From assembly GCF_006716235.1 (NCBI RefSeq), contig NZ_VFOR01000002.1, positions 372,001 to 436,000 of the forward strand: DNA of 64,000 bases. Direction: 5' to 3'. The notes under the pieces are model-generated. The model was not told where the DNA came from. It saw nothing but the letters and a program-made list of their open reading frames with translations, and ran no database searches. Origin of the DNA: Propioniferax innocua. Lineage in GTDB: Bacteria > Actinomycetota > Actinomycetes > Propionibacteriales > Propionibacteriaceae. Positions 7,975 through 42,604 of the stretch are shown here, in pieces (positions within the stretch are counted from its first letter, which is position 1; every line of letters starts with the position of its first letter). The translations under genes were made by a program, and so were the position numbers.

Positions 7975-8796
7975 TCAGCGTCGCAGGTAGGAGATGAGAC
8001 GCAGCAGCTCGAGGTAGAGCCAGATGAGGGTCAGCGTCAGGCCGAAGGCTGCACGCCAGGCCTGGTCGGCCGGCACACCGGCACGGACTCCTCGCTCGAT
8101 GTGGTCGAAGTCGAGCACGAGGTTCAGCACGCCGAGCACGACGCCCACCACAGCCACACCGATGGTCAGGAGGCCACCCGAACGCAGGCCGAGGCCACCG
8201 GGCATGAAGAAGCTGAGTACGAAGTTGACCAGCATCAGCACGCCGAATGACACGGTGGCGAGCAGCACGATCTTCTGGAACTTCGGCGTCACCCGGATGT
8301 TGAAGAACTTGTAGGCGAACAGCGTCACAAGAGCCGCGACGAACGTCGCCATGACCGCCTGGACGACGATCCCGTCATACAGGAGCTCGAAGATCTGGGA
8401 GAACCCGCCGACGAACACGCCTTGGGAGAGGGCGAAGATCATCACCAACGGCGCCGGCACACTGTGGCGAACGGCAGCCATGATCGACAGCACCAGCGTC
8501 ATGACCGCCGACACACCCCAAGCCACCATGAAGTACCCCGAGGTCGGCGGCAGCAGGACCCAGGTGACGGCAGCAGCGGCCACGACCAGGCCGATGGAGA
8601 TGATCGACTTCACGATCACGTCATCGAAGGTCATGGGCCGCTGGGATCCGGTGGGCTCAGGTGCATAGGACGAGCCCGGTCGCGGACCGGTGTATCGCGG
8701 ACCGGGGTGTCGCGGCCCTGTGTACCTCGTTCTGGTGTGCTGGCCGGCGTAGGGATTCGCGAACTGGCGGCTGAGCACGGGGTTGCTGGTACGCAT
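7975..8796 (-). CDS. Bax inhibitor-1 / YccA family membrane protein
   Basis: 273 residues from the ATG at 8796, preceded by an AGGAG-like site; longer in-frame starts would run into the tRNA gene. An Arg/Tyr/Pro-rich cytosolic N-terminus of ~70 residues precedes seven predicted helices covering the rest. The pattern matches the BI-1/YccA family (TMBIM), Ca2+-leak or stress-related integral membrane proteins whose bacterial role is poorly known. It lies directly downstream of a same-strand tRNA gene with an ~80 base gap. Confidence 0.85.
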   Translation of the reverse strand: MRTSNPVLSRQFANPYAGQHTRTRYTGPRHPGPRYTGPRPGSSYAPEPTGSQRPMTFDDVIVKSIISIGLVVAAAAVTWVLLPPTSGYFMVAWGVSAVMTLVLSIMAAVRHSVPAPLVMIFALSQGVFVGGFSQIFELLYDGIVVQAVMATFVAALVTLFAYKFFNIRVTPKFQKIVLLATVSFGVLMLVNFVLSFFMPGGLGLRSGGLLTIGVAVVGVVLGVLNLVLDFDHIERGVRAGVPADQAWRAAFGLTLTLIWLYLELLRLISYLRR

Positions 8797-8877
8797 GGTT
8801 CTCCTGAAAGGTCTGGAACATGTCCAGTGTAGGAGTGGGCACCAGCCGATCCAGCGTTTCGGGCCGACGATGTGAGG

Positions 8878-8950
8878 TACCCCCGATGGGATTCGAACCC
8901 ACACTTGAGCGGGTTTAAGCCGCCTGCCTCTGCCGTTGGGCTACGGGGGC
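8878..8950 (-). tRNA. tRNA, anticodon UAA (Leu by codon), but class I-shaped
   Basis: A complete 73-base cloverleaf: 7-bp acceptor stem (GCCCCCG / CGGGGGT), D-arm, 5-bp anticodon stem (GGCGG / CCGCT, one G-U pair) with loop CTTAAAC, 5-base variable loop CAAGT, and T-arm GTGGG-TTCGAAT-CCCAT. Discriminator base A, no encoded CCA. The anticodon UAA reads UUA leucine codons, yet bacterial tRNA-Leu normally has a long class II variable arm, absent here. So the structure is clear and the amino-acid identity is uncertain. Confidence 0.8.
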
Positions 8951-9053
8951 GCGGGCTTCACCCTAGCGTTATGAGATCCCACGCCGCGTCATGAGACCCC
9001 ACGCCACAGCCCGGACCAGACAGACCAGAGCATGCCGGGCCAGGCCGGGTGAA

Positions 9054-9179
9054 CCAGACCAAGCCAAGTGAGCCAGACCAAGCCAGACCAAGCCAAGTGA
9101 GCCAGACCAAGCCAGACCAAGCCAAGTGAGCCAGACCAAGCCAGACCAAGCCAAGTGAGCCAGACCAAGCCAGGCCAAG
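9054..9179. repeat. 29-bp tandem repeat array
   Basis: Three perfect 29-bp units at 9073-9101, 9102-9130 and 9131-9159, each made of two copies of CCAGACCAAG plus CCAAGTGAG. They are flanked by a shortened copy at 9054-9072 and a degenerate one from 9160. Units are directly abutting, so this is a minisatellite, not a CRISPR. On the minus strand the array stays open and would spell Trp/Leu/Gly-rich repeats, which I regard as non-coding. It lies in a ~610 base gene-free gap between the tRNA and ppx. Confidence 0.9.
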
Positions 9180-9251
9180 CCGAGTACGCCAAAGCATGCC
9201 GGGCCAAGCCAAATCAGATTGGCCAAATCGCCAACGCTCACCCCCCATTGA

Positions 9252-9562: not shown

Positions 9563-10576
9563 TCACACCAGTTCGGCGGCCACGGCGTCCAAGATGTCGG
9601 TCTCGCTGACGATCAGCGGCACGCCGACCCGTTCAGCGATCCGCGAGCAGATCAATGCACCACCGGCGATCACCTGAGCCCGCAGGGGCGCCAGCGTCGG
9701 GACCGTCGTCAGTTCCTCCACGGTGGAGTCGATGATCCGGCTGCTCAGATGCTCCACGTCGGTGGGCAGAAGCATCGCACCGTGTACTCGAGCGCGGTCA
9801 TACGCGGTGAGGTCCAAGAACATGGCGGCCATCGATGTCGCCGTACCGGCCACCCCGACCCAGGTCCGAGCCTCATGCCAGGGAACATCACTGGCGTCGA
9901 GGATGCGATCCACATGGCCGATGGCTGCCCGCCGCTCGGCAGCCGTAGCCGGGTCCGATCTCAGGAATCGCTCCCGCATCCGAACCGCGCCGATATCCAC
10001 GGATGCGGCTCCCATGACCTGACCTGTCTGCTCTCCGACAACCAGTTCGGTCGACCCGCCACCGATGTCGGTGACAAGCACGGGCCCGGCATCGACATCC
10101 GCACGCCCCTTCAACGCTTCCAACGCCCCGGAGAACGAAAGTCGCGCTTCCTCCTCGCCGGAGATCACCTCGACGTCCACGCCCAGACGTTCCCGGACGC
10201 CCGCCTCGAACTCGGCACGATTCTGCACATCACGGCTCGCGCTCGTCGCGACGAACCTGAGCCGCTCAACGCCGGCGTCTTCGATCAGTTCGGCGTAACC
10301 ATCGATCGCTCGGAAGGTCCTGATCAGCGCATCCGGATGGAACATGCCGGTGGCATCCACTCCCTGCCCCAACCGGACCAGTTCAACGCGCCGATCCACC
10401 TCGATCAGACCGTCAGCAGCCTCCTGCTCGTTGTCCACCACTGCAGACACTCGCGGTGACGAGGCCCCGATCACGCCTTGTCCATGCTGCGACGAAGATC
10501 CCGAAGTCCTCGTCCCATCGGCGATGAGCAGCCGGATCGAATTGGTGCCGCAATCGATCACGGCCACCCGCGTCAT
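9563..10576 (-). CDS. ppx: Ppx/GppA family exopolyphosphatase
   Basis: 337 residues, the short two-domain actinobacterial form. The start carries the actin-like phosphate-1 motif VAVIDCGTNSIRLLIAD, and a second ATPase-fold signature VTDIGGGSTELVVG lies near residue 155. The family hydrolyses polyphosphate and/or the pentaphosphate alarmone pppGpp. It is the last gene of the run ftsB - DUF501 - ppx; its ATG overlaps the DUF501 stop by four bases (ATGA). The region after its stop is filled with short repeats. Confidence 0.92.
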   Translation of the reverse strand: MTRVAVIDCGTNSIRLLIADGTRTSGSSSQHGQGVIGASSPRVSAVVDNEQEAADGLIEVDRRVELVRLGQGVDATGMFHPDALIRTFRAIDGYAELIEDAGVERLRFVATSASRDVQNRAEFEAGVRERLGVDVEVISGEEEARLSFSGALEALKGRADVDAGPVLVTDIGGGSTELVVGEQTGQVMGAASVDIGAVRMRERFLRSDPATAAERRAAIGHVDRILDASDVPWHEARTWVGVAGTATSMAAMFLDLTAYDRARVHGAMLLPTDVEHLSSRIIDSTVEELTTVPTLAPLRAQVIAGGALICSRIAERVGVPLIVSETDILDAVAAELV

Positions 10577-11082
10577 GCATCACCTTCGGGGTTGCAGGGC
10601 TTGGCCCAGTACTCCCCCATCGCCTCCATGACCTCGTCGCCCAACGGATTGACGCCCGGCCCCTTGGCCAGAGCATGCCCCGCGAGCACATGGAGGCATT
10701 TGACGCGCGTCGGCATCCCACCGGCGCTGATCCCGTCGATCTCGGGCACGTCGCCCAGCTTCGCGCGGTCGGCCAGATAACTCTCGTGAGCCTCGGCATA
10801 AGCAGCGGCAAGCTCAGGTGACTCGGCGAGGCGCTCGTTCATCTCCACCATCACGCTCGCCGATTCCAATCGCGAACATGCAGCAGTCGCGCGCGGGCAG
10901 GTCAGGTAGTACGTCGTCGGGAACGGTGTTCCATTCGGCAGCCTCGGTTCAGTCGCCACCACATCCGGACGCCCGCACGGGCAACGATGCGCCACCCCGG
11001 CCACGCCACGCGGTGGACGCTGCAGCTGTCCCTCGATCGCCCGCTCGTCATCGGCGGACATCGGCTCCAACCCCGGGATCAT
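10573..11082 (-). CDS. DUF501 family protein
   Basis: 169 residues from the ATG at 11082, which follows the ftsB stop by one base and has a GGAGGG site ~9 bases upstream; an in-frame start at 11142 would lie inside ftsB. Three conserved cysteines fall in HRCPCGRP and YLTCPRA, and the motif GGMPTRVKCLHVLAGH is diagnostic of DUF501, which is nearly always found between ftsB and ppx in actinobacteria. Function unknown; the Cys/His content suggests metal binding. Confidence 0.9.
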   Translation of the reverse strand: MIPGLEPMSADDERAIEGQLQRPPRGVAGVAHRCPCGRPDVVATEPRLPNGTPFPTTYYLTCPRATAACSRLESASVMVEMNERLAESPELAAAYAEAHESYLADRAKLGDVPEIDGISAGGMPTRVKCLHVLAGHALAKGPGVNPLGDEVMEAMGEYWAKPCNPEGDA

Positions 11083-11083
11083 C

Positions 11084-11704
11084 TCAGTTTCCCTCCGTCG
11101 TGATCGGTGGACGCTCCCCCGGATCAACCTTGCCGCCCTCATCCTCGGGCTTCTGCGTGGGAGGCTGATCGGCGAAATTCACCGAGTCACTCATACGCTG
11201 ATACCAAGGTCCCCGCTCATCGGGAGCACGGGATCCGTCCGACCTGTCATCGATGCCCACGACTTCCCCGTCGGGCCCGATCACCCGGTACCCGGTATCA
11301 CCCGGAACCACCCAGCCCAGACGCGACCGTGCCTCGGCCGCCACGAAATCCGGGTCGTTCCAACGACGCAGATCGTCCTCCAACTCGGCGATCCGCTGCT
11401 GAGACTGCTCGATGCGGTGCCTATCGGCCGCCTTCTCCCTCTCGGTGCTGAAGTACACCCGCAACGACGAGGCATAGCTGAGGCCGAGGATCACCAGCAC
11501 CACCAGCATCAACAGGGTTCGGCGTGTCACGCCACCACGGTGTCGCGAGACAGCCCCCTCATCGTTCCCAGGGGCACGTTCAGCAGGGCGCTCCACCACC
11601 GGGTCAGCGGATGCGCGGGGGCGACGATTGGCCCGGGACCCGCCACGACCGGGCCCGGCTCCACTGCGAGGGTTCTTGCTGCGAGGGTTCTGGGGCCTGG
11701 ACAT
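11084..11704 (-). CDS. ftsB: FtsB/DivIC-like septum formation protein
   Basis: 206 residues from the ATG at 11704; a longer in-frame extension would run through the eno terminator. A basic, Arg/Pro-rich cytosolic N-terminus (~60 residues) precedes one membrane helix (LLMLVVLVILGLSYASSLRVY). A coiled coil (HRIEQSQQRIAELEDDLRRW) and the DivIC-type motif around EARSRLGWVVPGDTGYRV follow. FtsB bridges FtsL and FtsQ in the divisome. Gene order eno - ftsB - DUF501 - ppx is classical in actinobacteria. Confidence 0.9.
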   Translation of the reverse strand: MSRPQNPRSKNPRSGAGPGRGGSRANRRPRASADPVVERPAERAPGNDEGAVSRHRGGVTRRTLLMLVVLVILGLSYASSLRVYFSTEREKAADRHRIEQSQQRIAELEDDLRRWNDPDFVAAEARSRLGWVVPGDTGYRVIGPDGEVVGIDDRSDGSRAPDERGPWYQRMSDSVNFADQPPTQKPEDEGGKVDPGERPPITTEGN

Positions 11705-11843: not shown

Positions 11844-13160
<1,317 letters not shown>

Positions 13161-42460: not shown

Positions 42461-42524
42461 GGCCTTTCCCTCCTCGGGCCCCACTTGCGCAGCCTTGACC
42501 CGTCGATCCGCCTGATGCGTCTCG

Positions 42525-42604
42525 TTCCCCGGGTAGGAGTCGAACCTACGTCGCTAAATCCTGATTCAAAGTCAGGCGGGCCCTGCCGACAGACCAACCG
42601 GGGA
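42525..42604 (-). tRNA. tRNA-Gln (anticodon UUG), atypical D-arm and variable loop
   Basis: Acceptor stem TCCCCGG/CCGGGGA perfect, D-stem GGTC/GGCC, anticodon stem CCTGA/TCAGG with loop CTTTGAA (anticodon TTG), T-arm GTAGG-TTCGACT-CCTAC. Discriminator base A, no encoded CCA. Two features are odd: position 14 of the D-loop is not A, and the variable region is 10 bases (ATTTAGCGAC) rather than 4-5. A tRNA-Gln next to glmU is, from memory, usual in actinobacteria, which supports the identity. Confidence 0.75.

Follow-up and report, generated by a model that had tools for sequence, protein, structure and literature searches.

Our analyses indicate that Propioniferax innocua probably decodes UUA with just one tRNA, a leucine isoacceptor devoid of the long variable arm, and that short-armed and long-armed tRNA-Leu(UAA) are likely alternative forms exchanged at a locus of the bldA type. 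In textbooks, bacterial tRNA-Leu is recognised by its long variable arm. In the window, i.e., the whole stretch of 64,000 nucleotides that was analysed, the gene occupies positions 8878..8950 of the minus strand and measures 73 bases without the CCA end, which is only partly encoded. ARAGORN reported a tRNA-Leu(taa) at 8876-8950 on the minus strand, and the Rfam model RF00005 matched 8878-8950 on the same strand with 55.4 bits (gathering score 29, E 3.2e-9). The acceptor stem GCCCCCG/CGGGGGT forms seven base pairs including G1-U72, the T-arm pairs as GTGGG/CCCAT, and the discriminator is A73. The anticodon loop CTTAAAC presents UAA at positions 34-36 (8915..8917, minus), in agreement with position 34 as placed by ARAGORN. 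By position counts, the D-arm GCCC-AACGGCAGA-GGC (positions 10-25; 8926..8941, minus) is of the leucine type, with A14, A15, G18G19, A20a, G21 and C13.A22. Where the long arm would be expected, there is a variable loop CAAGT of only five bases (positions 44-48; 8903..8907, minus), short of the at least ten that mark a class II variable arm. ARAGORN, Rfam and the sequence itself thus confirm the complete cloverleaf, UAA anticodon and five-base variable loop described in the sequence-only reading, and support its proposal of a class I-shaped, non-canonical UUA reader with a leucine anticodon. Judged from its fold and its relatives, window 8878-8950 is a genuine leucine tRNA, conserved and unusual in shape.

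The host assembly (2.79 Mb, 6 contigs, 98.98% complete) gave 45 matches to the Rfam tRNA model, and all 45 were fetched and read with ARAGORN. The other leucine tRNAs carry CAG, UAG, CAA and GAG anticodons, and every one of them is long-armed. A second UAA tRNA was not found among the 45, and the window gene is hence the sole UUA reader of the assembly, a role that we regard as well supported. This refutes the earlier idea that it might be a second UUA reader; the proposed search for a normal class II tRNA-Leu(UAA) elsewhere in the genome likewise returned none among the 45 tRNAs. There is little UUA to read: in 38 crudely called window genes the codon occurred in 2 of 16,514 positions, and neither the host leuS nor the core columns of its rpoB contained TTA. 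The tRNA would be transcribed, charged by the ordinary leucyl-tRNA synthetase (LeuRS) and used for these few codons. In the same tRNA set, a tRNA-Gln(TTG) at window positions 42524-42604 (minus) scored lowest of the 45 with 42 bits; it has a 10-base variable region and lacks A14.

The short-armed form is widespread. Across the class, a short-gap UAA pattern matched 134 of 246 sampled genomes, about half, and a long-gap pattern 80, of which 7 had intermediate gaps. Both patterns were present in 15 of the 246, where the long match looked un-tRNA-like by eye, judged from the unfolded letters, and 47 matched neither. Carriers named among the matches listed were Microbacterium, Leucobacter, Nocardioides, Cellulomonas, Corynebacterium, Gordonia, Dietzia, Saccharopolyspora, Amycolatopsis, Arthrobacter, Brachybacterium and Trueperella. 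The 73-base DNA itself was matched in 52 of 57 related genomes. Among 61 listed match places, the 37 read individually were all UAA tRNAs with variable loops of five bases (36 places) or six (one place); a 38th, in genome G037, proved to be a short-armed Leu(CAA) (L577). In the family, a long-armed UAA pattern matched none of 50 genomes; its minimum gap is too long to catch the short-armed form, and it thus speaks for the absence of the long form only. Several loci stand apart from these counts. G037 and G600, from two families, hold near-identical UAA tRNAs with a 9-base variable region (L571 and L572), and in a Chloroflexaceae MAG (L123) 26 tRNA genes lie within about 4.4 kb, including short-armed Leu(UAA) and Leu(CAA). 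In a Rokubacteriota MAG (G662, L114) a short-armed UAA tRNA is third in a Gly-Cys-Leu tRNA row; the same genome has a long-gap UAA match elsewhere, which we counted against our preferred explanation.

The gene lies among housekeeping genes on the same strand. Downstream is a Bax inhibitor 1-like protein (7975..8796, minus; Pfam PF12811, E 3.2e-76); upstream follow a Ppx/GppA phosphatase family gene (9563..10576, minus; PF02541, E 1.7e-49), a DUF501 gene (10573..11142, minus; PF04417, E 1.4e-41) and, farther away in the same block, enolase (11844..13121, minus; PF00113, E 7.8e-132). Short tandem-like repeats, gccaagtgagccagacca, occur at window positions 9040-9190, some 100 bases upstream of the tRNA gene. 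Ppx/GppA homologues were present at 20 and Bax inhibitor-like homologues at 10 of 36 related loci, although absence tells little here because these loci span only about 3 kb. DUF501, which served as the marker of the shared locus, was found in all 24 genomes searched, and the window tRNA lies 1.6 kb downstream of it. A UAA tRNA followed DUF501 at a distance of about 1-21 kb on the same strand in 20 of the 24 genomes. It was short-armed in 10 (G034, G046, G173, G227, G250, G261, G389, G442, G481, G554), intermediate in 2 (G035, G038) and long-armed in 8 (G033, G042, G188, G293, G225, G299, G469, G483). G225 and G299 are not members of the class, and G469 has three extra UAA copies elsewhere. 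The shared position was broken in two genomes, G336 (opposite strand, 13 kb) and G196 (88 kb), and in G470 and G497 DUF501 and the UAA tRNA were on separate contigs.

Because they occupy the same place relative to DUF501 in these 20 genomes, short-armed and long-armed UAA genes correspond to each other in position, which makes the window gene a positional counterpart of bldA, the tRNA-Leu(UAA) of Streptomyces. The comparison with bldA drawn earlier is therefore apt, as the window gene shares its neighbourhood with long-armed UAA genes, including those of G188 and G293 (f6), which we infer to be Streptomyces. Both tRNAs have the anticodon, the leucine determinants and the position as single UUA reader in common. 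In contrast, the bldA type has a 17-base variable arm and a core with G9, G12-C23 and G13.A22, whereas the window tRNA has five bases with A9, C12-G23 and C13.A22. As to a use of UUA as a regulatory switch, the observation here is the rarity of TTA in the window genes.

Features of the tRNA body bear on how two forms came to share one locus. Once the variable region was taken out (67 columns, 48 genomes, the G554 and G225 tRNAs missing from the set), a tRNA tree parted 31 short-armed and intermediate sequences from 17 long-armed ones with a support of 98/98, the bootstrap being unsettled. When the D-arm was removed as well, the split fell to 84/84 and was not significant, so that part of it could be due to linked core positions having converged. 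These linked differences comprise A9 in the short versus G9 in the long form, C12-G23 versus G12-C23, C13.A22 versus G13.A22, and a loop mostly ending in AGU. C13.A22 was present in all 155 short-armed genome sequences and G13.A22 in 29 of 35 long-armed UAA tRNAs, and AGT ended 138 of 152 five-base variable loops. Such linked changes (A9, C12-G23, C13.A22 and the AGU end) may serve to fit a leucine D-loop into a fold of class I.

The main rival to an exchange of forms is repeated, independent loss of the arm in place, with the class I fold forcing the same core changes every time; the product would still be a leucine tRNA, and only the history would differ. In its favour are the locus common to both forms in 20 of 24 genomes, the weakened split without the D-arm, and the existence of forms with variable regions of 7-10 bases (f4, f79). 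However, these intermediates already have the short-type core. Furthermore, acceptor-stem positions without contact to the arm (alignment columns 4, 5, 60 and 61) also separate the forms, and short-armed bodies from far families resemble each other more (mean likeness 0.80) than short and long bodies within one family (0.65, 7 pairs). We hence consider arm loss in place rather unlikely, although it is the strongest of the competing explanations.

In agreement with an exchange, an RpoB tree built from 37 genomes requires at least nine changes of arm state, six of them forced by starred branches, a count that gives no rate because the genomes were picked to include mixed families, several of these being fragmented assemblies, and because arm states on this chosen set showed no more grouping than after shuffling (131 of 500 shuffles were as low). 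A tree with all short-armed genomes in one clade was rejected on RpoB (p-AU 3e-76). A 39-row tree that included the partial sequences of G470 and G500, dropped for the 37-row tree, gave 11 changes, 8 of them forced; G465 (no match) and G536, G549, G526 and G566 (partial) were in neither tree. The short and long forms may thus represent two old lineages of UAA tRNA at one locus, with several mutual replacements or sorting from an ancestral pair. We hold belief and doubt in balance on the proposal that, at the bldA-type locus, the short-armed lineage took the place of the long-armed UUA reader again and again across Actinomycetes, at least six times by the RpoB tree, and that phages perhaps seeded this.

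Whatever the history, the window tRNA bears the marks of leucine. E. coli LeuRS needs A73, A15-U48, G18G19, A20a and contacts between the D- and T-loops, and the long arm is not needed. One review lists A73, A15-U48, G18G19, A20a and U54:A58 as E. coli tRNA-Leu elements, and names A73 together with A14 for both E. coli and human mitochondrial tRNA-Leu (PMC9976931). We scored six determinants, A73, A14, A15-U48, G18G19, A20a and U54-A58, and the window tRNA has all six. So do the four long-armed leucine tRNAs of the host (4/4) and 147 of 155 unique short-armed UAA sequences from genome loci, the others having five (7 sequences) or two (one sequence). None of 40 non-leucine tRNAs of the host reached six; five were found in 2, four in 22 and three in 16. 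Left out of these counts are 39 tRNAs whose positions the numbering script failed to assign; those printed were not UAA. Leucine identity of the window tRNA is well supported.

Could it nevertheless carry another amino acid, with UUA reassigned or ambiguous in such bacteria? A long arm is the normal state for bacterial tRNA-Leu, and the near-absence of UUA from the host would make such a change cheap. As the host hardly uses UUA, too little for a direct test, decoding was examined in relatives. Genome G007 (95% complete, leuS locus of 52% GC, 39 tRNA matches) has a single UAA tRNA, which is short-armed. In its LeuRS, 10 of 13 core TTA codons fell into leucine columns, defined as those in which leucine is the most frequent residue in seven genomes with a long-armed UAA tRNA, and 3 fell outside; its RpoB, which gave no usable reading frame, was left out of the comparison. 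G554, a single contig screened for further UAA tRNAs by pattern only, has the short-gap but not the long-gap UAA pattern, and its tRNA sequence was read. Here, 31 of 37 core TTA codons of RpoB fell into leucine columns of four long-armed genomes and 6 outside. In an AT-rich relative with a short-armed tRNA, 37 of the 97 leucine codons in core columns of RpoB were TTA. Four pooled f95 genomes placed 34 of 43 TTA codons in leucine columns, with none of three for G637; TTG (50/55) and CTT (111/131) served as controls. From these alignments, UUA is read as leucine where the short-armed tRNA is the only reader detected. Given the leucine determinants on the window tRNA and the placement of TTA in relatives, a non-leucine charge appears very unlikely, and the earlier suggestion that another synthetase might charge this tRNA found no support.

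No LeuRS change was found tied to arm length. Thirty LeuRS genes fell into two architectures, which differ by several insertions, and each occurs together with short-armed as well as with long-armed UAA tRNAs; a LeuRS correlate of arm length was therefore rejected. The pattern would agree with a bacterial LeuRS that is blind to the arm. Across Actinomycetota (loci L381-L410), the two architectures, one with an insertion before KMSKS, are scattered over families. In two f4 genomes, both with an intermediate UAA tRNA, a second LeuRS-like gene adjoins the first (G038:C1:3860364-3862520 and G047:C1:6269163-6271268).

Short-armed UAA tRNAs are also common in viral contigs, where at least 120 stretches contain them, and 121 phage records matched; of four opened, one had a UAA anticodon and the others GAG, CAA and UAG. 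The window tRNA might therefore have been recently phage-borne or mobile and not part of the core genome. Against this stand the housekeeping neighbours enolase, DUF501 and Ppx/GppA, which are kept across families, and its position as the only UAA reader of the host, and we regard recent mobility as highly improbable. An old phage origin of the short-armed lineage is possible. Among 77 unique viral-contig sequences of the short-armed UAA type, 33 had six leucine determinants and 41 had five, and many had G15-C48 instead of A15-U48. Phages Karimac (L484), Bonray (L486) and Thermobifida phage P318 (L487) carry short-armed leucine tRNAs with CAA, GAG and UAG anticodons, the P318 gene being unannotated in its record. 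The thought that a Streptomyces phage might supply a short-armed UUA reader past bldA was rejected when the Karimac place, the one opened of three, turned out to encode a short Leu(CAA) and not a UAA tRNA.

The weakest alternative is a decayed or silent gene. In the family, 32 of 33 genomes had a match, the sole miss being a genome only 71% complete, and all 32 loci were short-armed UAA tRNAs when read. Stem cells of the 155 unique short-armed UAA tRNAs from genome loci held standard pairs in 99.6% of cases, compared with a mean of 83.0% and a maximum of 84.0% in 200 shuffles, and 17 of 20 stem pairs showed two-sided changes. Comparatively, then, the short-armed UAA tRNA is an RNA under selection and no relic; the window gene has neither the broken stems nor the relaxed conservation of a pseudogene. 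Decay, raised in the sequence-only reading, is contradicted by this conservation and these compensatory changes, and with no other UAA tRNA in the host for the job a decayed or silent gene is very unlikely, even though a scan of 8780-9100 gave no sigma-70-like promoter or terminator match, with a consensus that fits few actinobacterial genes.

Unusually built tRNAs, leucine tRNAs among them, have been met before. Human mitochondrial tRNA-Leu(UUR) also lacks the long arm and, according to PMC9976931, is recognised via A73 and A14; it is organellar and loosely folded, whereas the window tRNA is bacterial, GC-rich and fully paired. Allo-tRNAs and further non-canonical tRNAs (PMC7609411) are likewise bacterial tRNAs of unexpected build. 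They have 8/4 or 9/3 acceptor/T stems, in contrast to the 7/5 of the window tRNA, which is conserved in core genomes. Short-looped leucine tRNAs of mycobacteria were already seen in passing: published passages describe a cluster-borne tRNA-Leu(TAG) whose variable loop is short (PMC6582537) and long loops for Leu-2, 3 and 5 of M. tuberculosis, which implies that the others are not long-looped (PMC11541572). In these passages, UAA, a role as sole UUA reader and a shared locus are not mentioned. Surely, tRNA databases already hold such genes. In the open full-text literature, which covers few subscription journals, no description of a short-armed bacterial tRNA-Leu(UAA) was found. The earlier reservation that this might be a well-known, conserved actinobacterial tRNA thus held for the conservation; for the renown, that search gave no backing.

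Throughout the family and in roughly half of the genomes sampled from the class, the only reader of one leucine codon thus does without the long arm. This provides a natural test of how LeuRS recognises its tRNA and cautions against naming tRNAs by shape. It also offers a comparison for bldA, namely, whether the UUA switch depends on the long-armed form. If the proposed repeated displacement is true, the tRNA of one codon changes its structural class while the amino acid is kept, and the form behind the Streptomyces UUA switch would be one of two that are interchangeable. Short-armed tRNAs of this kind, with UAA, CAA, GAG and UAG anticodons, are found in phages, which may perhaps have seeded the displacement.
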